Assembly (NCBI GenBank): GCA_003696905.1
Contig: RFHJ01000132.1
Location: 1 to 33,576 of the forward strand
Source: Gammaproteobacteria bacterium
GTDB taxonomy: Bacteria > Pseudomonadota > Gammaproteobacteria > Chromatiales > Chromatiaceae
Direction of reading: 5' to 3'
DNA: 33,576 bases
The translations under genes and the position numbers were made by a program. The notes below the pieces were generated by a model, which ran no database searches, was not told the DNA's origin, and saw only the letters and a list, made by a program, of their open reading frames with translations. Below are positions 15,148-27,655 of this stretch, piece by piece (within the stretch, counting starts at the first letter, position 1; the number at the start of each line of letters is the position of its first letter).

Positions 15148-17958
15148 TCAAAACTCTTCCCACTCGTCGTCACCCGATTCTACCGGTTCCGCCTTGGGTC
15201 TTGGTTCTGGCACGGGCCGCACCCCGGATGTCGGCGTCGCCTTCTCCGCGGGTCGCGTGGGGGCAACCGCGGTGGCTGCGGGCCGGTGCTCCACCGAAGC
15301 GGCTGCGGATGCACCTGCCGGGGCCACCCGCTCGGCGCCTGTACCCTCGGCCGTCTTGAAGAAGCTGACCAGGCGCCGCATCTCCACCGCCTTTTCGCTC
15401 AGCGATGCGGACGCGGCGGAGGTCTGCTCGGCCAGCGCGGCGTTCTGCTGGGTGACCTCGTCCATCGAGGTGACCGCCTGGTTGACCTGTTCGATGCCTG
15501 CGAGCTGTTCACTGGAGGCCGCCGCGATCTCGGCGATGATGTCGCCGACCTTCTTCACGCTCACCACGATCTCCTCCAGGGTGCTGCCCGACTCGTCCAC
15601 CAGCGCACTGCCCGCCTGGACCTTGGTCACCGAATCCTGAATCAGCTCCTTGATCTCCTTGGCCGCCTCCGCGGAGCGGGAGGCCAGATTCCGCACCTCG
15701 GTGGCCACCACGGCGAAGCCCCTGCCCTGCTCGCCGGCCCGGGCCGCCTCCACCGAGGCGTTCAGTGCCAACAGGTTGGTCTGGAAGGCGATCTCGTCGA
15801 TCACGCCGATAATTTCGGCGATCCGCTCGCTCGCATCGTTGATCTCCTTCATCGCCGTCACGGTACGTCCGACCACCTCTCCGCCCTGATTGGCCAGCTG
15901 GCTGGCGCTGGTGGCCACCTGATCGGCCACCCTGGCGTTTTCCGCATTGTTGCGCACCGTCGAGGTCAGCTCCTCCATCGAGGCCGCGGTTTCTTGCAAC
16001 GCTGCCGCCTGTTGCTCCGTGCGATTGGAGAGATTGGTGTTGCCGCTGCTGATCTCTCCGGAGGCAGAGGCAATACTCTCGGAAGCTGCATGCAGCTGCT
16101 GCACTACCCTTTGGATGTTCTCGATGGTCGTATTGACGTCCTGCTTGACCCGTTCGAACACACCCGCGTACTCGCGCGTAATGGGTTTTGTGAGGTCGCC
16201 TTCGGCCATCCGCTTCATGGTGGCGGCAATGTCACTGAAGCCGTTTTCCACCACATCCAGCAGCTGGTTCATGCCCACCCCCAACTGACGGAAGAAGCCC
16301 CGCTTGCCGTCGAGTGCGATGCGGCGGCTCAGTTCTCCGTTTTTGGCGGCGGCCACGATGTCTTCGATCTCACGCTCGACCTTCACCTCGGCGGTACGGT
16401 TGGTCCACTCCACCGCGGTGCCGATGCGGTTGCCCTCCTGATCGAATACCGGGTTGGCCACGATGCGCAGGGTCAGGCCATTGACCTCCACCTCGTTCTC
16501 CACTGCCTCCCGGATCCCGTCCAGCATGGCGCGTTGATGCCGAGGGTCCCGATGGAACAGGTCCATGTTCTTGCCTCGCAGGTCTTCGGGATCGAAGCCG
16601 GGCAGCGCCTCGCGCAGCTGGGGCGCCGCCTCCCTGAACATCCTTTCCACCGACTTGTTCAGATAGATGATGTTGTAGTCTTGATCGGCCACCATCACCG
16701 AACTGCCCACATTGTCCAGCGCGGCACGGATGCGGGCGTTCTCGGCGGCGAGCCGCCGCTCGTCCTCCAGGCGCCTGGCCTCTTCCTCGGCCGCCGCGAT
16801 CTCCTCGGTCCGGTCCACCCACTGGGTCACCCGCCCCAGATAGGTCTTCTCTTCGTCGTAGACCGGGCTGGCCACGAAGCGGACCTGACGATCGCCCATC
16901 ACCGAATCGACCGTGATGGTGCTGTCCAGGGGGCGACTGAAGGCGGCACGACCCGCCTCGTCGTCGAAATAGTCACGCAGCCGGCCGCCGATCAGCTTGT
17001 CCACGCTGAAACCAGGGTGGTTGCGGGCGATCGCCGGCGCCAGCTCGGTGAACAGGCGTCGCGCCGCCTCGTTCATGAAGATGAGGGTATTGTTCTCGTC
17101 GGAGACGGTGATGGCGGCATCCGCGTTCTCCAGTGCAGAGCGCATGCGCCCGACCTCGCTGAGCTGCTCCCTCAGGTGCTGCATCTGCTCGCGCAATTGA
17201 TCCCGCATGCGCAACAGCGCCTGATAGAGTCCAGTCGCCTTGCTCTGGCCCTCGTATTCGGTATCGAGCTCGCCCGCTGCGATGGCCTCGGCAATCCGGC
17301 TCAACACCACCGGATCGTGACCGATGGTGCGGAAGATGCCGTGAAACAGCCAGGCCATGAGCCCCACGACCGCCAGGAAGGCCAGAGAACCGATGACCGT
17401 ATAGAACAGCAGTTGACCGGACAGTGTCTTGTCCTGTTGCGCCTGCTCGGCGACCCCCGCGCGGGCCCGTTCAACGAAGGGGACGATCTGTTCGCTGAGC
17501 GCCTCCGCCGCCTTGTCGAACTTCGGCATCAGGACATTGCCGGCCGCCGGGCCGCCCGAGATGTAGGCCTTGGCCATCTCCTGACCAACCTCATAGTACC
17601 GTTCGAAGGCGGCCGACATCTTGTCATAGGTCGCCTGGTGAGCGGCATCGAGTTGACGCAGTTCGCTCAGTAATTCGTGGAAGCGCTTCGCCTGGCCGGC
17701 TGCCTCGTCGAAGCCATCATTCAGTCCGTCGAGCCCCCGAGTCGCGCTGATGTCGGAAAGCCACTGCTGCACCTGCACCACCGCCAGGTTGAGCTGATGG
17801 GCCCTGTCCATCAAAGCCACATCGTGGTCCACGAGGTCACCCAGGGACCTGATGACCCGCTGCTCCTGGACCAGTAAGGTGCTGACGGTGACACCGGCCA
17901 CCACCACCAGGGCGAGGACGATGCCGACGAGTTTCTGCTTGAAGGTGAGACGGTCCAT
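15148..17958 (-). CDS. Methyl-accepting chemotaxis protein with two PAS domains and CheR/CheB tether
   Basis: Chemoreceptor of 936 aa. TM1 spans about residues 8-29, a periplasmic helical bundle about 30-185, and TM2 about 190-215 ([21 protein letters not shown]). A HAMP-like segment beginning [20 protein letters not shown], two cytoplasmic PAS domains ([13 protein letters not shown] and [14 protein letters not shown]), a second HAMP-like region ([13 protein letters not shown]) and the MCP signalling hairpin with tip [33 protein letters not shown] follow. After a Pro/Ala-rich linker it ends DDEWEEF, a pentapeptide tether like NWETF that recruits CheR and CheB. FHRDPRHQ in PAS2 is seen in MCP-associated PAS domains; the ligand is unknown. 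ATG 17958 has GAGAGGA upstream, and the track's 78 earlier codons are not used. Confidence 0.94.
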
Positions 17959-18130: not shown

Positions 18131-18895
18131 TCAGATCGCGAGGTACTCCTCGCGCAACTCGTGATTGTCGAGCACCTCCTGGGCGGTGCCATCGAATACC
18201 ACGTTGCCCATGTCGAGGATCACCGCGCGGTCGGCGAGATTCAAGGCGGCAATGGCGTTCTGCTCCACGATGATGGTGGTAATGCCCAGCTCGCGGATAC
18301 TCTCAAGGATACGTTCGATCTCCTGCACGATCACCGGTGCCAGCCCCTCGTAGGGCTCGTCCAGCAAGAGCAGTTTCACGTCGCGGGCCAGGGCGCGTGC
18401 CACCGCCAGCATCTGCTGTTCACCGCCGGAGAGGGTGACGGCCTCCTGGGTGCGGCGCTCGGCAAGACGCGGAAAGTGTTCGTAGATCCGCTCCTTGGTC
18501 CAGCCGTGCGGCGGTGCAATCTGCGCCAGGTCCAGCGATTCCTCGACCGTCAGGCCCGGGATGATGCGCCGGTCCTCGGGTACCAGCTGGATGCCCGAGC
18601 GAGCCGCCTTCCAGGCGCTCATCTCGTGGATGGGGTGGTGATCCAGCCACACCTCGCCGTGTTTCATCTCGGGCGTATCGAGCCGCGCGATGGTACGCAG
18701 GGTCGAGGTCTTGCCGGCGCCGTTGCGCCCCAGCAGGGCCAGAATCTCGCCCTCGCGGATGTCGAAGCTGACGCCCTGGACGATATAGCTCTCGCCATAG
18801 TAAGCGTGCAATTCCCAGGCGGAAAAGAAGGCCGGAGAGGTGCCCAGCGCCTTGATCGGCGGGGTCTTGGGTGCTCGCTTGGTGGTAAAGGTCAT
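18131..18895 (-). CDS. livF: Liv-type ABC importer ATP-binding protein (LivF)
   Basis: Second ATPase subunit (254 aa) of a branched-chain-amino-acid-type ABC importer, acting at the cytoplasmic face of the LivH/LivM permease pair. It shows Walker [11 protein letters not shown]-loop region [21 protein letters not shown], signature [15 protein letters not shown], Walker B LLLLDEP and the H-loop position in TTIIVEQN, which has the Gln/Asn variant common in LivF. The N terminus carries about 25 extra residues before the core fold. ATG 18895 overlaps the livG stop as ATGA. It is the last gene of the operon, and no CoA ligase or other enzyme follows. Confidence 0.92.
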
Positions 18896-19671
18896 ATCTC
18901 TGCACTCCCCAGGTAGGCCTCGCGCACCTTCGGGTGCCCCTTGATCTCGTCCGGATGGCCCTCGGCGATGATTTTTCCCTGGGCCAGCACACTGATGCGG
19001 TCGGCGAGGCTGAATACGACATGCATGTCGTGCTCGATGATCACCTTGGTCATCCCCCTGGCCTTGATCTTCTTCAGCAGATCGATGGTGCGGTTGGTGT
19101 CGTGGCGCGCCATGCCCGCCGTGGGTTCATCGAGCAGCAACAGCTTGGGATGCTGGATCAAGCACATGGCCAGTTCCAGGCGTCGCTTGTCGCCCCGCGA
19201 GAGATTCCCTGCGTGATGATGTGCCTGTTCGGCCATGCCCAAATCCTCCAGGAGCGCCATTGCCTCGTCCTCGACGTCCTTTTCGTCCCGCAGGGGTTCG
19301 AAGGGGTTGAAGCGGAAGGTGCCCTCCTTGTGGGCGAAGGCCGGCAGCATGACGTTCTGCACCAGCGACAGGTCGGGAAAGATTGCCGGGGTCTGGAAGA
19401 CCCGCGAAATACCCAGCTGGTTGATATCGTGGGGCTTGAGATCGCCCTGGGTGAGATCCGTGCCCAGAAAACGGATGGTGCCACTGTCGGGCTTGAGCAG
19501 GCCGATGCAGGTATTGAGCAGGGTCGACTTGCCAGCCCCGTTGGGCCCGATGATGGCATGGGTCTTCCCCTGTTCGATCCGGAGATTGATGTCCGAGAGC
19601 GCCTGCAGGCCGCCAAAGGCCTTGTTGACCCCAGCGATCTCGAGCACGATGTTGTCCGGCTGAGCACTCAT
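18892..19671 (-). CDS. livG: Liv-type ABC importer ATP-binding protein (LivG)
   Basis: First ATPase subunit, 259 aa. It shows Walker A IGPNGAGKSTLLN, Q-loop VFQTPAIFPDLSLVQNVML, signature LSRGDKRRLELAMCL (variant of LSGGQ, as in many LivG/UrtD proteins), Walker B LLLLDEPTAGMA and switch His in VIIEHDMHVV. The stop of livM and ATG 19671 share one base (TGATG), and GGAGG lies 4-5 nt upstream. A GTG three bases earlier is the ORF-track start and would overlap livM by 4 nt instead. The substrate is set by the binding protein, not by this subunit. Confidence 0.92.
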   Translation of the reverse strand: MSAQPDNIVLEIAGVNKAFGGLQALSDINLRIEQGKTHAIIGPNGAGKSTLLNTCIGLLKPDSGTIRFLGTDLTQGDLKPHDINQLGISRVFQTPAIFPDLSLVQNVMLPAFAHKEGTFRFNPFEPLRDEKDVEDEAMALLEDLGMAEQAHHHAGNLSRGDKRRLELAMCLIQHPKLLLLDEPTAGMARHDTNRTIDLLKKIKARGMTKVIIEHDMHVVFSLADRISVLAQGKIIAEGHPDEIKGHPKVREAYLGSAEI

Positions 19672-20807
19672 CACGCCTCCTCCTCTGCCTTGCCGGGCTT
19701 GCGCTGGAACAACGCCTGAATGCGACGGAAGCCCTCGATGATGCCGCCCGGCAGGAAGATGATGATCACCATGAACAGCACCCCCAGGGTCAGGTGCCAG
19801 CCATCACCCACGAAGGGCGAGGTCAGCGTCACCATCAGCTCGTTCAGCCAGTCCGGCAGGAAGTCGAAGACCTGGTGCAGCGTCTGTTCATTGACCGCCG
19901 AGAAGATGTTCTCGAAGTACTTGATGGTCGCCGCGCCGATCACCGGGCCCAACAGCGTTCCGACACCCCCGAGGATGGTCATCAGCACTACCTCGCCGGA
20001 GGCGGTCCATTGCATCCGTTCGGCGCCGGCCAAGGGATCGACGATGGCCATCAGGGATCCCGCCAGGCCGGCGTAGATACCGGAGATCACGAAGACACTC
20101 AGCAGATAGGGCCTGGGATTGAAACCCGTGTACTCCATCCGTGTCTGGTTACTTTTTATAGCCACCAGTTTCATGCCGTAGGGCGAGCGGAAGATCCGCA
20201 GCGCCACCCAGAAACCCAGAATCAGCATCACGGCGCAGAAATAGAAACCAGCATAGCCCTTGAGCGTCAGTCCAAACAGGTCGGCGAGCGGCGAGCCCTG
20301 CACCTGAATACCCAGCAGGGTATCGATCAGTCGCGGATCGTCGCGCAACACGCGCAGGCCGGTTTCGCCGTTGGTGATGGGGGTGAGCACCGAATAGGCC
20401 ATGTTGTAGGACATCTGGGCGAAGGCCAGGGTCAGGATGGAGAAATAGATGCCCGTCCGCCGCAGGCTGAGGAAACCGATGACCACCGCGAAGATTGCCG
20501 AGATCGCCACCGATAGCAGAACCGCCGGGATGACGTTCATCGACAACAGTTTGAACGACCACACAGTGGCGTAGGAACCCACCCCGAGGAAGGCGGCGTG
20601 GCCGAAGGAGAGGTAGCCGGTCAAGCCGAACAAAAGATTGTAGCCGATGGCAAAGAGGCCAAAGATGGCAAACTTCTGCAGCAGATCGGGATAGCCCGCG
20701 CCAATGGCCTGGGCCCACAGCGGGGCGCTCAACACCACCGCGGAAAATATGGCCAGCACCAGGTAATCGCGCAGGGAAGTGGAGGCAATGATGATTCGGG
20801 TCTGCAT
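19671..20807 (-). CDS. livM: Liv-type ABC importer permease (LivM)
   Basis: Inner-membrane permease of 378 aa with roughly ten hydrophobic segments, for example [51 protein letters not shown] and VIIIFLPGG near the C terminus. The [20 protein letters not shown] block and the region [15 protein letters not shown]...[22 protein letters not shown], which contacts the ATPases, are hallmarks of LivM. It pairs with LivH. The start has GGGAGAA just upstream and lies 10 nt after the livH stop. Confidence 0.92.
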
Positions 20808-20817
20808 GATTTCTCCC

Positions 20818-21816
20818 TCAGTCCTTGCCCATCAGGCCGCGCGGCCGAACCAGCAGGATGATGACCGCCACCAGGTAGATGATGATCTGGTCGATGCCCG
20901 GCAGGATGGACTTGATCTCGTTCATGGAGAAGAACGACTGCAGAATGCCGAGCAGAAACCCGGCCGCCACTGCCCCCGGCAGCGAGCCCATGCCGCCGAC
21001 CACGACCACCACGAAGGAGAGCACCAGAAAGTCCATGCCCATGTGGTAGTCGGGCGAGAGAATGGGCGTGTACATGGTCCCTGCGAGGCCGGCGACCACG
21101 GCCGCGATGCCGAACACAATGGTGAAGCGCCGCTCGATGTTGATGCCGAGCAGGCTCACCATCTCACGGTCGTGCATGCCGGCACGCACCACCATACCGA
21201 AGGTGGTGAACTGCAGAAAGGCGAACACGAGGCCGATGACCACCACCGAGAACAGCAGATAGATCAACCGCCACCAAGGATAGACGATGCCGGGCATGCC
21301 GAAGACGGCGCCGACGTCCACGCTGGTCGCCACCGCCTCCGGCGCCGCCACCGGGATGGGGTTGGCGCCATAGAAGGACTTCACGATCTCCTGCAGTACG
21401 ATGGCCAGCCCAAAGGTGACCAGGATCTGATCGGCATGGTCACGCTTGTAGAAATAGCGGATCAGGCCCCGTTCCATGGCGAGCCCGATCAGGAGCATCA
21501 CCGGTATGGCCGCGACGATCGATATCGGCACCGAATAATCGATGATGGCACGCCCGATGTCCCCCCACCACACCTCCAGATAGGGGACCTCCTTGTAGGC
21601 ATCGAAGAAGGTGATGCTGGGGTCTTTCACCCGCATCGAGATCGTCAACAGTTCCTGCACGCTGACCGCCACGAAGGCGCCCAGCATGAAGAGCGCGCCG
21701 TGGGCGAAGTTCACCACCCCTAGGGTGCCGAAGACCAGACTCAGACCCAGGGCGATGAGCGCATAGGCTCCCCCTTTGTCCAGGCCGTTGAGTATCTGCA
21801 GCAATATCGCTTCCAT
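20818..21816 (-). CDS. livH: Liv-type ABC importer permease (LivH)
   Basis: Inner-membrane permease of 332 aa (E. coli LivH 308). It begins [45 protein letters not shown], the family signature, and carries the coupling region [43 protein letters not shown] loop at about 55-90 ([27 protein letters not shown]) is longer than in E. coli LivH and is common in homologues transporting amides or carboxylates; its function is unknown. It lies 113 nt after the binding-protein gene, with a hairpin terminator between. Confidence 0.92.
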
Positions 21817-21929: not shown

Positions 21930-23273
21930 TCAGGCGTTGCACTGACCCAGTTCGCCGCCGAAGATCGACGGGTCGTACTCCACCTGCGAACGCGGCACCA
22001 CCTTGGCTACCTCCAGCAGGTCGAATTGCGAGCTCGGCTTCTCCTTGCCGCGCACCACCAGCACGTCCTTGAAGCACTGGTGGTCGGCCGCGCGGTACTC
22101 GGTGGGCCCGTTGCCCATGCCGTCGAACTTGAAGCCTTCCAGCGCCTCGATCACACCGCAGGGGTTGAAGGTGCCGGCCATCTCGCAGGCATTGGCATAC
22201 AACAGGGTCTGCACATAGCAGGTCTGTGCCGCCTGCGACGGCGGGAAACCGTACTCGGCGCCAAAGGACTTGACGAAGGCCTTGGAGCCCTCGTCGCTCA
22301 GCGACCAGTGCCAGTTGGTGGTCCCCAGGATACCCTTGATGGCATCTCCGGCGCCCTGCGCCATGAGACGGGAGAACAGCGGCACCACGATCTCGAACTT
22401 CTTGCCATTGACCATCTTGTCGCGCAGACCGAACTGCACCGCCTGGGTCAACGAGTTCACCATGTCCTTGCCGTAGTGGTTGAGGATCAGCACATCGGCG
22501 CCCGAGTTCAGTACCGGGGTGATGTACTGGGAGAAGTCGCCGGCGCCCAGCGGGGTACGCACGGCAGCAACGGTCTTCCACCCCAGGGCCTCGGTGGCGT
22601 TCTTGATGGACTCTTCCTGGGTCCAGCCCCAGGTATAGTCGGCGGTCAGGTGATAGGCCTTGCGGTCACGGCCGTATTCCTCCGCCAGCACCGGTGCCAG
22701 GGCCTGGCCGGACATGTAGGCGTTGAAGAAGTGGCGGAAGCCGTGCTTGCGCTTGTCCTTGCCGGTGGTGTCGTTGGAGTGGGTCAGGCCCGCCATGAAG
22801 ATCACACCGGCCTCCTGGCACAGCGACTGTACCGCGATCGCCACCCCCGATGAGGAGCCGCCCGAGATCATCAATGCGCCGTCCTTCTCGATCATCCGCT
22901 TGGCCGAGGCGCGGGCCGCGTCCGACTTGGTCTGGGTGTCGCCAGTCACGTAGGTGACCTTCTTGCCCAGAATACCGTTGCCCTTGAGGCTCGACGGCTT
23001 CATGGTGTTGAGCATGCCCCCGTCACCCTCGCCGTTGAGGTGCTTGACCGCCAGCTTGAAGGCGCGCAGCTCGTCCGCGCCCTCGTCGGCATAGGCACCG
23101 GTCTGTGGCACGTTGAAGCCGAGGGTCACGGTAGCACCCTTCGGCTCGTTGACGAACGCATGGGCATTGCGAATCAGAATGGTGGGCGCCGCGGTGACCG
23201 CGGCGGTGGCGATGGATGCCTTGAGGAATCCACGCCGGGAAAGGTTAGGGAATTTCTTATCGTCGTCAGACAT
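21930..23273 (-). CDS. Tat-exported periplasmic binding protein of a liv-type ABC importer
   Basis: Substrate-binding protein (447 aa) of the Peripla_BP_6 (LivJ-like) family. The N terminus has a twin-arginine signal, LSRRGFLKAS, with Arg13-Arg14, a hydrophobic stretch and AHA cleavage near residue 39; LivJ itself uses Sec, so export of a folded protein is expected. The mature part has GFNVPQTGAYADEGADELRAFKLAVKHLN, SGGSSSGVAIAVQ and YTWGWTQEESIKNA, typical of the family. The ligand could be a branched-chain amino acid, amide or short carboxylate; the neighbouring CrbSR-type regulators favour a carbon source but do not prove it. GGAGG lies 9 nt before ATG 23273. First gene of the operon. Confidence 0.9.
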   Translation of the reverse strand: MSDDDKKFPNLSRRGFLKASIATAAVTAAPTILIRNAHAFVNEPKGATVTLGFNVPQTGAYADEGADELRAFKLAVKHLNGEGDGGMLNTMKPSSLKGNGILGKKVTYVTGDTQTKSDAARASAKRMIEKDGALMISGGSSSGVAIAVQSLCQEAGVIFMAGLTHSNDTTGKDKRKHGFRHFFNAYMSGQALAPVLAEEYGRDRKAYHLTADYTWGWTQEESIKNATEALGWKTVAAVRTPLGAGDFSQYITPVLNSGADVLILNHYGKDMVNSLTQAVQFGLRDKMVNGKKFEIVVPLFSRLMAQGAGDAIKGILGTTNWHWSLSDEGSKAFVKSFGAEYGFPPSQAAQTCYVQTLLYANACEMAGTFNPCGVIEALEGFKFDGMGNGPTEYRAADHQCFKDVLVVRGKEKPSSQFDLLEVAKVVPRSQVEYDPSIFGGELGQCNA

Positions 23274-23339: not shown

Positions 23340-23361
23340 GACTTTGTAGAATCCGCTGGCC
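23340..23361. promoter_or_regulatory. Intergenic motif copy 2, near the binding-protein gene
   Basis: GACTTTGTAGAAT-CCGCTGGCC matches the motif at 23443-23469 with a few changes and a short gap, in the same orientation. It lies about 67 nt upstream of the binding-protein start. The 230-nt gap between the divergent genes otherwise holds no coding region. Candidate binding site for a shared regulator. Confidence 0.4.
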
Positions 23362-23439
23362 CGCGCGAGGGCATTCCACCCCCAAGAAAGGCCATGCAGT
23401 TCACGGCGCGACTATGGCAATACCCCGGTTTGCATACAA

Positions 23440-23469
23440 TTAGACTTTAGTCGAATACCTCCGCTGGCC
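23440..23469. promoter_or_regulatory. Palindromic operator-like motif (copy 1) before the response regulator
   Basis: TTAGACT-TT-AGTCGAA (23440-23455) is a 7-2-7 inverted repeat with one mismatch. Its right part continues into GAATACCTCCGCTGGCC, shared with copy 2. A TACAAT -10-like hexamer (23435-23440) abuts it and lacks a good -35, as expected for an activator-dependent promoter. It lies about 50 nt upstream of the regulator gene. The LuxR-type regulator encoded next door is the obvious candidate binder, but this is inference. Confidence 0.45.
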
Positions 23470-23503
23470 GGAGAGACGCATAATCCGGAGGAACGAGGAC
23501 GCC

Positions 23504-24169
23504 ATGCCGGAATCTGCCTGCGAAATGGACACGCACATCATCGTGGCGGACGATCACCCCCTGTTCCGCGATGCCGTCACCCACCTGCTGGAACGCAGCA
23601 TACCCATGGTGCGCGTCAGCCAGGTAGAGAGCTTTCGCCAGCTCAACGAGCAGCTGGCGGGAGATGTCCTGCCCAGTCTGGTGCTGCTGGACCTGAAACT
23701 GATCGACACCCGCGGCCTGGACGGCCTGTTGCTGCTGAAGAAACACTACCCGTCGCTGCCCGTACTCATCATCTCCGCCTTCGACGACGACAAGGTGGTA
23801 CAGATGGCCATGCAGTGCGGCGCCAGCGGCTTCGTACCCAAGCGCCTGGAGATGGAGCGCATGGCCGAGGCCATCCAGTCCGTGCTGGAGGGCGAGATGT
23901 GGTTTCCGGAGCTCGAGGTGGCCGACGAGGCACCGCCGCTGGATACCAAGGCGTTGGTCGAATCACTCACCCCGGCTCAGCTGCGCGTCCTTTCCCTGCT
24001 GCGCGACGGCATGCCCAGCAAGGAGATGGCGGCCGCCATGTCGGTCACCGAGGCCACCATCAAGGCCCATCTCACCGAGATCTTTCGCAAACTGAAGGTC
24101 AAGAACCGGACCCAGGCGGTGCTCGCGACCCAGGATCTCGACCTTCCTTCCCAGGGACTGCCGGAATAG
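23504..24169 (+). CDS. crbR: LuxR/NarL-type response regulator, CrbR/ErdR-like
   Basis: DNA-binding response regulator of 221 aa. The receiver domain has acidic residues D16-D17, phosphoacceptor D63 in LVLLDLKLID, and K113 in GFVPKRLEM. The C-terminal LuxR helix-turn-helix (about 158-210) reads LTPAQLRVLSLLRDGMPSKEMAAAMSVTEATIKAHLTEIFRKLKV. Together with the SLC5-kinase hybrid beside it, this matches CrbR/ErdR, activators of acetate and related carbon-use genes in Vibrio and Pseudomonas; the name rests on architecture and context, not an alignment. ATG 23504 follows GGAGGA and GAGGA sequences; Met8 is a weaker alternative. Divergent from the ABC importer and convergent with its probable kinase, 6 nt apart. 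Confidence 0.85.
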   Translation: MPESACEMDTHIIVADDHPLFRDAVTHLLERSIPMVRVSQVESFRQLNEQLAGDVLPSLVLLDLKLIDTRGLDGLLLLKKHYPSLPVLIISAFDDDKVVQMAMQCGASGFVPKRLEMERMAEAIQSVLEGEMWFPELEVADEAPPLDTKALVESLTPAQLRVLSLLRDGMPSKEMAAAMSVTEATIKAHLTEIFRKLKVKNRTQAVLATQDLDLPSQGLPE

Positions 24170-24175
24170 GCGGTA

Positions 24176-27100
24176 TCAGCCGGCCGCGCGGGCCTGCTCC
24201 TGTTGTGTCAGGGCAGTGTGCAGTATCGATCGCAGCTTGGCCGGCTCCACCGGCTTGGCGAGAAACTGAAAGCCCGCGGCCAGCGCCGATTCACGCACTC
24301 GCGCGTCCTGTTCGGCGGTGATGAGCACGCCGAGGAAGCGCTCCCCGTGACGCGCCCGGTAGTGGTGCAGCAGATCCAGACCGTTGGTCATTTCGTGCAA
24401 TCGGTAGTCCATGAGCACGATGTCGCACGGGACGGTGGCATCCGCCCGCTGCAGATATCCCTCGGCACTGTTCTCGCACAGCACCTCGGCGCCCCAGCGT
24501 TCGAGCACGGTGCGCGTGGCGCGCAATATCTCGGGATCGTCGTCGACGCACAGGATGCGTCGCCCCTCCAGCCAGCGGGTCTTGAAAGGACGGGTATCGA
24601 CACTGGAATGCCGCACTGCCTGGACCTGTACCCGCGGCACCACCACACTGAAGGTGCTGCCCACCCCCTCGCGCGACCGGACCTCCAGGCGGTGGCCGAG
24701 CAATTCCGCCATGCGTTCGCAGATCGCCAGCCCCAGGCCCACACCTTCGGCATTGTGATCGAGCTGCTGGAACTCGCGGAATATCGCCTCCAGCTTGTCC
24801 GGAGGAATACCGCGTCCGGAATCACGTACCTCGATGCGGATGGCATCCGGACCGGCCCGTCGGCAGACCACCAGGATCGTACCCTGCTCGGTGTAACGAA
24901 TGGCATTGGAGAGAAAGTTCTGCAGGATGCTGCGCAACAGATTGCGATCGCTGCGGGTCCCGCAGTGGCTCTCATGGATCCGCAGGTTCAGCCCCTTCTG
25001 CCGGGCGAGTACCGAAAATTCGTTGTACAGGGCGTCGAACAGCGGCTGGATGGGGAAGGCGGTGACCTCGGGCCGCATGGCTCCGGCATCCAGCTTCGAG
25101 ATGTCGAGCAGCGCCCGCAGCAGCGATTCGGCCGACGCCAGGGCATCCAGGGCATTGCGCGCCAGCAACTGGCGCTCGTCCCCCGCCAGATCCTCGTAGA
25201 GGGCGCCCAGGTACAGCTTGGATGCCCCCAACGGCTGGGTCAGGTCGTGGCTGGCCGCCGCCAGGAAGCGCGACTTGCTGCGGGTACTCTCCTCCAGCCG
25301 CGCATTGAGTTCCGACAGCCGCCGGGTGCGGGCCTCGACCTGGCTCTCCAGGCGCTCGTTGACCCGCGCCAGTTCGCGCTCTGCCTGCTTGATCGCCGTG
25401 ATGTCGGTGAAGGTGGTGATGAAGCCCCCATCGGGCAGGCGCGCGCCCTGGGTCTGGATGATCCGGCCGTCGCGCCATTCGCGGACATAGGTATAGGGAC
25501 GGCCGTGGCGCAGATAATCAAGCCGCTTGCGTACCTCTGCATCCAGCGGACCGGTGAACACGGGCCCGAAGCCGCGCTGCACGTTGAATCGAATCACCTC
25601 CTCGATCGGCATGCCCACGTGCAGAAAATCCGCGGGAAAGGCAAACAGCTCACTATAAAGCCGATTCCAGGTCATCAGGCGCAGATCCGGGTCGACCACG
25701 CTCACCGCCTGGCCGATGTGATCGAGGGTGACCTGCAGGATCTCACGGTTGAACTGCAAGGCCTGCCCTGCGGTATCCAGCAGCCGGTAGAGATCGCGCT
25801 CGCCGTCCCGGTCGAGACTGCCACGCAGGGCGGTGTCGATCAGATGTTCGGCACTGGCGGTGCCGATGCTGCCCGCCAACAGGTGCTGGGCCTGCCGCAG
25901 CAGGCGGTCGCCGGCGCGCTGGTGCTGCTCGCGGACGGGGTCACAGCCGTGCTCCAGGAAGAACTGCCGGGTGCGTTCCTCGCCAGTGAAGCGGCTGCAC
26001 AGCTCCGCGAGATCCCCCACCCGCAGGCGGTGGTCCAGTGCCTCTGGCTGCGCCTCGTGCAGGTCCACATAGCTGCTCGCCTGCAGGCGGTCGACGAAGG
26101 AATGATCGGCACGCAGCGACACCAGCACATACAGCAACAGGTTGGCGCCGAGGCTCCAGAAGACCCCATGGCTCAGGTAGTCGTCGAAATGCCAGCCGAA
26201 CAGGGCCCGAGGCGCCAGCCATTGCAGACCAAAGGGTCCCTCCGTCAGGAACCCGGATGGCAGCCAGGCCGCATTGCCCAGCGATGGCAGCAGCAACAGA
26301 TACAACCAGAGGGCGAAGCCGGCGATCAACCCCGCCACCACGCCATGGCGATGCCCCCGGCGCCAGTAGAGCCCCCCGACCAGGGCCGGCAGAAACTGGA
26401 TCGCCGCCGCGAAGGAGAGCAGACCGATGCTGTAGAGCGACTTGCCGCTGCCCGCCAGGAGATAGTAGCCATAGGCCAGCAGCATCAGGCCCAGGATGGT
26501 GAGGCGCCGGATCAACAGCAGATGGCAATGCAGGCTGCGGCCCTCCGCCTGACGTCCCCAACGCACCATGAGCGGAAAGATGAGGTCGTTCGATACCATG
26601 GTGCTGAGTGCCAGGGTGGAGACGATCACCATCCCGGTCGCTGCCGAGAAGCCGCCCAGATAGGCGAGCAGGGTCAACAAGTCGTGCCCGCTCTGCAGCG
26701 GCAGAAAGAGCACATACAGATCCGGATTTCCGCCCCAGGCGAAGCGCTGCAGGCCGGCGCCGGTGATGGGCACCACTGCCAGGCTGAACAACAGCAGATA
26801 GAGCGGGAATCCCCAACGGGCAAAGGGCAACTCGTTCCCGCGTCCCTCCACCGCGAAGACGTGGAACTGCCTTGGCAGACACAGGATGGCGGCTGCCGCC
26901 AGCAGGGTCCGGGTGATGAAGCCACCGTCCAGGTCCGATTCGTGAAAGGGGAGCAGCATCAGCGAGAATGCCGTCAGACTGGACGAGCCGGCCGCCGCCT
27001 GGCGCAACAGCTGGACCGCCAGTCCCGCGATGGCGAGGAAGGCCACCAGCTTGACCATCGACTCCACCGATATGGCGTGGATCATGCCACGGTGGTGCAC

Positions 27101-27655
27101 CGAGGCATCGATGGTGCGGGCACCGAACAGGACCGCGAAGGCCGCCAGTATCAGGGTCAGCACCAGGGCGGTATCGACGTTGTGCAGCAGGCTTCCCGGG
27201 TCGGCGGCCGCCGGTGCCAGGGCATCATAGGCATTGGCAATGGCCTTGATCTGCAGCGAGATGTAGGGCAGCGTCCCTACCAGTGCGATGAGGGTGACGA
27301 CCGCCGCCACCTGATGGCTCTTGCCATAGCGGCCGGCGATGAAGTCGGCGATGGTGGTCGACTTCTGGCGCTTGCTCACACTGAGCAGCTTCTTCAGAAA
27401 GGAATGGAACAGCAGAAAGACCAGAATGGGGCCGAGGTAGATGGCAAAGAAGGAAAGTCCGCCCTGGGCCGCATTGCCTACCGCCCCGTAGAAGGTCCAC
27501 GACGTGCAGTAGACCGTCAGCGAGAGGGTAAAGATCAGTGGCTGGTGGCGCGAGACATGCCCCTCTGGTTGGGCGTCACCGCGATGCGCCACAAAGAACA
27601 GCGCGCCCAGATAGAGCGCGACGACGCCGGCCAGGAGTTCGGCACCGAGCCCCAT
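24176..27655 (-). CDS. crbS: Sodium:solute symporter-histidine kinase-receiver hybrid, CrbS-like
   Basis: Membrane sensor kinase of 1,159 aa. Residues 1-515 form an SLC5/SSS transporter-like region with about a dozen TM segments (SLTVYCTSWTFYGAVG; FIAGRYGKS). A STAC-like helical linker lies at 540-630, PAS at about 640-755 (GQAVSVVDPDLRLMTWNR), HisKA with H803 in ASHDLTQPLGASKLY, HATPase with NFLSNAIRYT, DSGRGIPP and GVGLGLAICERM, and a C-terminal receiver with D1083 (VLMDYRL) and K1134. This is the CrbS/MxtR layout, in which solute sensing or transport is tied to a LuxR-type regulator. ATG 27655 lies 17 nt after the ilvD stop, so it may share the ilvD transcript. No strong ribosome-binding site is seen. 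Confidence 0.9.
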   Translation of the reverse strand: MGLGAELLAGVVALYLGALFFVAHRGDAQPEGHVSRHQPLIFTLSLTVYCTSWTFYGAVGNAAQGGLSFFAIYLGPILVFLLFHSFLKKLLSVSKRQKSTTIADFIAGRYGKSHQVAAVVTLIALVGTLPYISLQIKAIANAYDALAPAAADPGSLLHNVDTALVLTLILAAFAVLFGARTIDASVHHRGMIHAISVESMVKLVAFLAIAGLAVQLLRQAAAGSSSLTAFSLMLLPFHESDLDGGFITRTLLAAAAILCLPRQFHVFAVEGRGNELPFARWGFPLYLLLFSLAVVPITGAGLQRFAWGGNPDLYVLFLPLQSGHDLLTLLAYLGGFSAATGMVIVSTLALSTMVSNDLIFPLMVRWGRQAEGRSLHCHLLLIRRLTILGLMLLAYGYYLLAGSGKSLYSIGLLSFAAAIQFLPALVGGLYWRRGHRHGVVAGLIAGFALWLYLLLLPSLGNAAWLPSGFLTEGPFGLQWLAPRALFGWHFDDYLSHGVFWSLGANLLLYVLVSLRADHSFVDRLQASSYVDLHEAQPEALDHRLRVGDLAELCSRFTGEERTRQFFLEHGCDPVREQHQRAGDRLLRQAQHLLAGSIGTASAEHLIDTALRGSLDRDGERDLYRLLDTAGQALQFNREILQVTLDHIGQAVSVVDPDLRLMTWNRLYSELFAFPADFLHVGMPIEEVIRFNVQRGFGPVFTGPLDAEVRKRLDYLRHGRPYTYVREWRDGRIIQTQGARLPDGGFITTFTDITAIKQAERELARVNERLESQVEARTRRLSELNARLEESTRSKSRFLAAASHDLTQPLGASKLYLGALYEDLAGDERQLLARNALDALASAESLLRALLDISKLDAGAMRPEVTAFPIQPLFDALYNEFSVLARQKGLNLRIHESHCGTRSDRNLLRSILQNFLSNAIRYTEQGTILVVCRRAGPDAIRIEVRDSGRGIPPDKLEAIFREFQQLDHNAEGVGLGLAICERMAELLGHRLEVRSREGVGSTFSVVVPRVQVQAVRHSSVDTRPFKTRWLEGRRILCVDDDPEILRATRTVLERWGAEVLCENSAEGYLQRADATVPCDIVLMDYRLHEMTNGLDLLHHYRARHGERFLGVLITAEQDARVRESALAAGFQFLAKPVEPAKLRSILHTALTQQEQARAAG

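Follow-up and report, generated by a model that had tools for sequence, protein, structure and literature searches.

Activation of acs by CrbR in P. fluorescens requires an inverted repeat, ACTU, which lies at positions -52 to -36 of the acs promoter, immediately before the RpoD promoter and beside its -35 element (Sepulveda and Lupas 2017, PMC5715377). In S. fredii, too, the CrbS/CrbR and RpuS/RpuR systems each consist of an SLC5-type sensor kinase and a LuxR-family regulator, although RpuR acts through a direct repeat to activate the gene of the symporter MctP (PMC9100948). The locus that we describe here combines a pair of this kind with an ABC importer that is not among the targets in PMC5715377, nor is any importer of its family named as a direct target of the S. 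fredii systems (PMC9100948). In gene content and fold families (Peripla_BP_6, UrtB-E-like) this importer resembles UrtABCDE and LivFGHMJ. A third point of comparison is provided by the ScfR-type regulators such as PccR and RamB, an unrelated family with HTH_3 and ScfRs domains.

In the window, i.e. the whole stretch of 33,576 nucleotides that was analysed, a LuxR-type response regulator gene is divergent to the importer operon and convergent with a hybrid sensor kinase gene (Table 1), just as crbS and crbR are convergent in S. fredii (PMC9100948). The regulator scores 178 bits against the ErdR model NF041830, under the curated cut-off of 390, and is therefore CrbR-like but not a member of the strict ErdR group that this model defines. 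Most alignments of its orthologues begin near residue 8, and its true start may be an internal ATG at 23525. The kinase contains the Pfam domains PAS_7, HisKA, HATPase_c and Response_reg, its N-terminal part matches MctP (E=3.9e-14), it matches the solved histidine kinase 10ed (E=5.7e-64), and its domain order is that of CrbS (SLC5 symporter domain, PAS, HisKA, HATPase, REC).

Table 1. Positions in the window of the genes, the inverted repeat and the promoter elements discussed in the text
Feature	Position	Strand	Remarks
Importer permeases and ATPases, UrtB/C/D/E-like	18131..21816	-	NCBIfam UrtB/C/D/E matches
Importer ATPases	18892-19674, 18131-18895	-	Urt-like
Importer permeases	20818-21816, 19671-20807	-	Urt-like
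Tat-exported Peripla_BP_6 substrate-binding protein	21930..23273	-	First gene of importer operon; PF13458 E=4.1e-72, TAT_signal
Reported "copy 2", GACTTTGTAGAATCCGCTGGCC	23340..23361	.	Chance resemblance, in predicted importer 5' leader
-10 CATAGT, importer promoter	23411..23416	-	23 bp from palindrome; conserved
Predicted -35 TTGTAT, importer promoter	23434..23439	-	Adjoins palindrome; 17-bp spacing to -10
ACTU-type inverted repeat (copy 1), TTAGACTTTAGTCGAAT	23440..23456	.	Candidate operator common to both divergent promoters
Predicted -35 TACCTC, regulator promoter	23456..23461	+	Adjoins palindrome; 17-bp spacing to conserved -10; poor consensus
-10 CATAAT, response-regulator promoter	23479..23484	+	23 bp from palindrome; conserved
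NarL/LuxR-type response regulator	23504..24169	+	Best NCBIfam match ErdR (CrbR); Response_reg + GerE
CrbS-like hybrid sensor kinase	24176..27655	-	Convergent with regulator; SLC5/MctP-like membrane part, PAS, HisKA, HATPase, REC

The palindrome and the divergent promoters

The initial annotation had reported two related copies of a motif in the intergenic region (23340-23469), the first containing a 7-2-7 palindrome, and both strings are present in the sequence as it described them (TTAGACTTTAGTCGAATACCTCCGCTGGCC at 23440-23469 in the case of copy 1). The palindrome, TTAGACT-TT-AGTCGAA, is there as well, with six of its seven arm pairs complementary and one mismatched; copy 1 consists of these 16 bp (23440-23455) and a following T. 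When both strands of the window were scored with a matrix built from six of the ACTU sites listed in PMC5715377, the overlapping registers starting at 23439 and 23440 ranked first and second among about 33,560 positions, with 23.0 and 20.0 bits, and the next-best position in the window reached 11.2 bits. Copy 1 differs from the nearest listed ACTU instance at 2 of 17 bases, and is thus 15/17 identical to TACGACTAAAGTCTAAA (reverse complement) of the P. fluorescens CrbR (ErdR) regulon (Sepulveda and Lupas 2017, PMC5715377). A comparison of the intergenic region with Rfam returned no RNA family. The match of copy 1 to ACTU is far beyond chance, and, as judged from its sequence, it is a genuine ACTU-type operator of the CrbR/ErdR kind placed at divergent promoters; its duplication into two copies is unsupported.

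The promoter elements on the two sides of the palindrome are arranged almost as mirror images. In each of the six congeneric loci compared (L002-L007), exactly 23 bp separate the palindrome from the importer-side -10 element CATAGT, the predicted -35 in congeners being TTGTAT, TTGTTC or TTGGCA, and on the regulator side a CATAAT or GATAAT is found at 23-24 bp in the same loci, despite differing downstream leaders. The acs promoters of congeners have their -10 (TACGAT or TAGGAT) 23-24 bp from the palindrome, the distance at L185 having been read by eye from the printed sequence. A 17-bp spacer and a 23-bp distance place the -35 hexamer directly against the palindrome, the arrangement also seen in the published acs promoter; the spacing on both divergent sides equals that at acs and matches the published ACTU/RpoD geometry. 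It is chiefly from this near-mirror arrangement that we argue for a single site serving both promoters. As in P. fluorescens, the site is an imperfect inverted repeat beside a (predicted) -35 and acs is a target in congeners, but here, unlike there, it is common to divergent promoters, one of which is the regulator's own. No full-consensus promoter was reported by a sigma-70 scan and the predicted -35 hexamers are poor, which tells against the model, although it is what one would expect of activator-dependent promoters. The leader of the regulator gene would be only about 13 nt long if the annotated ATG is used, and this also counts against the model, as do the sub-cut-off ErdR score of the regulator and the single site and missing acs of the window's draft genome.

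Conservation and genome-wide occurrence of the site

Copy 1 is identical at all 17 positions in five congeners (L003-L007) whose regulators are 69-90% identical to that of the window, and the palindrome reads TTAGACTTTNGTCKAM in six further genomes (G013, G065, G072, G251, G391 and G497). G000, the genome of the window, has the regulator gene next to the divergent gene of the substrate-binding protein, and so do G002, G003, G005, G006, G007, G013, G072, G251, G391 and G497 (L053 and L075 apparently represent G072 and G391 a second time, so that each was counted once). In L142 (G065:C185), near a contig end, the palindrome is 326 bp before the regulator gene, compared with about 85 in the congener G013. 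Where regulators fall below about 46% identity, the orthologous loci compared have neither a neighbouring importer nor the site. Thus the site is conserved in orthologous intergenic regions, and its absence from them, which would have told against a common regulator of the two genes, was not what we observed.

Nor is the motif a dispersed repeat. In G002, G003, G005 and G006, of which G003 and G005 are complete single-contig genomes, TTMGACNNNNGTCKAA occurs at exactly two places, the regulator/importer intergenic region and the region upstream of acs (156-204 bp from the acs match where measured), and a control with the reversed pattern gave zero matches in the genus. The initial annotation had pointed to a regulator acting on both genes, with acs and crbR homologues as the place to search, and this guess is supported: the ACTU site is present at the acs promoter of G001, G002, G003, G005 and G006. 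In the congener G004 the regulator orthologue and the importer are both missing and there are zero sites, its acs being without one as well. Similarly, in G009, G010 and G017, which have the importer with no regulator beside it, no site was found there. A search of the TTMGACNNNNGTCKAA type in the draft genome G000 found the window's site alone. No AcsA above the family cut-off was found in this draft, while the congeners searched have AcsA; since the draft is 92% complete, the missing acs may reflect either an assembly gap or a loss. One-mismatch sites in G000 (TAAGACCGAGGTCGAAT, C206) and in G002 (C20) both lie inside open reading frames and were read as chance occurrences.

The congener G001 presents a separate case. 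Its regulator gene (L008, G001:C199) is without approximately the first 22 codons and lies beside an IstB-like transposase gene, and its importer (L191, G001:C21), near a contig end, has no palindrome and shows a TTGACA upstream of the conserved CATAGT, while its acs site is kept. An insertion element seems to have brought about a natural decoupling here, to the extent that contig breaks permit such a reading.

Proposed regulation and alternative explanations

We consider it highly probable that the palindrome is the predicted site from which the CrbR/ErdR-type regulator activates both the importer operon and its own gene. In the proposed scheme the convergent CrbS-like kinase would phosphorylate the regulator, and a dimer of the phosphorylated regulator would bind the 7-2-7 repeat; with the repeat directly beside the -35 of both promoters, each with its 17-bp spacer and its -10 at 23 bp, the bound dimer would be placed to activate the importer operon on its left and the regulator gene on its right. 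Binding, its dependence on phosphorylation and a positive rather than negative effect on transcription are what we infer here, and the inducing signal would presumably be related to acetate or another monocarboxylate. Where acs is present, it too is very probably activated by this regulator.

One may also consider that the site serves just one promoter, for instance in activation of the importer, and that its nearness to the regulator gene is incidental. Such an arrangement would agree with the single target visible in the draft genome, and with L073, L076 and L130 (alphaproteobacterial and other loci), where the site precedes the importer while the regulator is not adjacent; nevertheless, the conservation of the regulator-side -10 at a fixed distance in front of different leaders, and a spacing on both sides equal to that at acs, make it unlikely. 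Repression by the regulator is far less probable still. It would require the bound palindrome to block a promoter that uses TACAAT, which the initial annotation had taken for a -10 abutting copy 1. That string is indeed found at 23435-23440, overlapping the palindrome edge on the + strand, but congeners have AACAAT or CCAAT in its place and it is not conserved in L004-L007 or L009, and published ACTU sites are activating and located upstream of the -35. We therefore rejected TACAAT as the relevant -10, the conserved elements at a fixed 23-24 bp being CATAAT (+) and CATAGT (-).

Least credible of all is that copies 1 and 2 are two cooperating sites of the regulator, looping or tiling across the intergenic region. 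Its attraction lies in the similarity between the copies, which the initial annotation considered hard to explain by base composition, and to a point this holds: the best direct-repeat score in the intergenic region is 17, against 10.6 +/- 2.0 in dinucleotide shuffles, just 3/400 of which reach 17. However, among 290 pieces of the window of equal length, 33 score as high, so that the similarity is weak evidence for a repeat, and gaps of one and four bases are needed to align the two copies. Copy 2 keeps 15, 4, 6, 6 and 14 of its 22 bases in L003-L007, respectively, which is no better than background, and the CCGCTGGCC tail is likewise not conserved. Copy 2 has 7/17 mismatches to the nearest published ACTU site and no ACTU score, and its position is about 43-64 nt into the predicted leader of the importer, past the predicted start site. 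Conservation and the window-piece control thus led us to reject the pairing of the two copies as a repeat; copy 2 is a chance look-alike.

The importer and its possible substrate

The importer differs from UrtABCDE in that all its subunits score under the curated Urt cut-offs (UrtA 62/493, UrtB 184/250, UrtC 121/296, UrtD 234/304 and UrtE 194/286 bits), and from urea and branched-chain amino acid systems in general in that its neighbouring regulators indicate short-chain acyl metabolism rather than nitrogen. Across Alpha- and Gammaproteobacteria its binding protein shares about 80% identity. After the importer operon, on the same (minus) strand, there is a gene for a methyl-accepting chemotaxis protein (15148-17958), and an ACTU site is also predicted at the P. 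fluorescens gene PFLU0447, which encodes such a protein.

In 35 of 80 named loci from relatives, the place of CrbR, divergent to the importer, is held by a gene related to the regulator of L085 (L085:4225-5790), which has an ScfR (short-chain fatty acyl-CoA regulator) domain, and beyond this ScfR-type neighbour there is often an SLC5-like protein. None of these 35 importer promoters has an ACTU site at <=2 mismatches. Sites with <=1 mismatch upstream of the importer were found in 2/2 regulator-adjacent loci, 0/35 ScfR loci and 3/43 other loci, the chance expectation being about 0.0015 per locus; two of the three site-bearing genomes in the last group have a CrbR-like regulator elsewhere, with 40-41% identity.

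That two unrelated regulators linked to short-chain acyl compounds occupy the same place suggests the substrate class of the importer, and the ScfR neighbours hint at a short-chain carboxylate. Our tentative proposal, which could well prove wrong, is that acetate, another short-chain carboxylate or a direct precursor is taken up by this importer, which would then be a widespread and so far uncharacterised ABC system. In the literature we found no paper placing it under CrbR, and no evidence on this importer came from a transposon study in C. sphaeroides, in which PccR and ABC transporters are named.

What appears to be new is a widespread urea-type ABC importer as a predicted ACTU target, together with apparent positive autoregulation of the regulator. 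The CrbS/R acetate regulon would in this way extend to an ABC importer operon and to the regulator's own gene, beyond the Pseudomonas and Vibrio systems that have been studied, and a transporter of Alpha- and Gammaproteobacteria that could readily be taken for a urea or branched-chain amino acid system now has a concrete substrate hypothesis.
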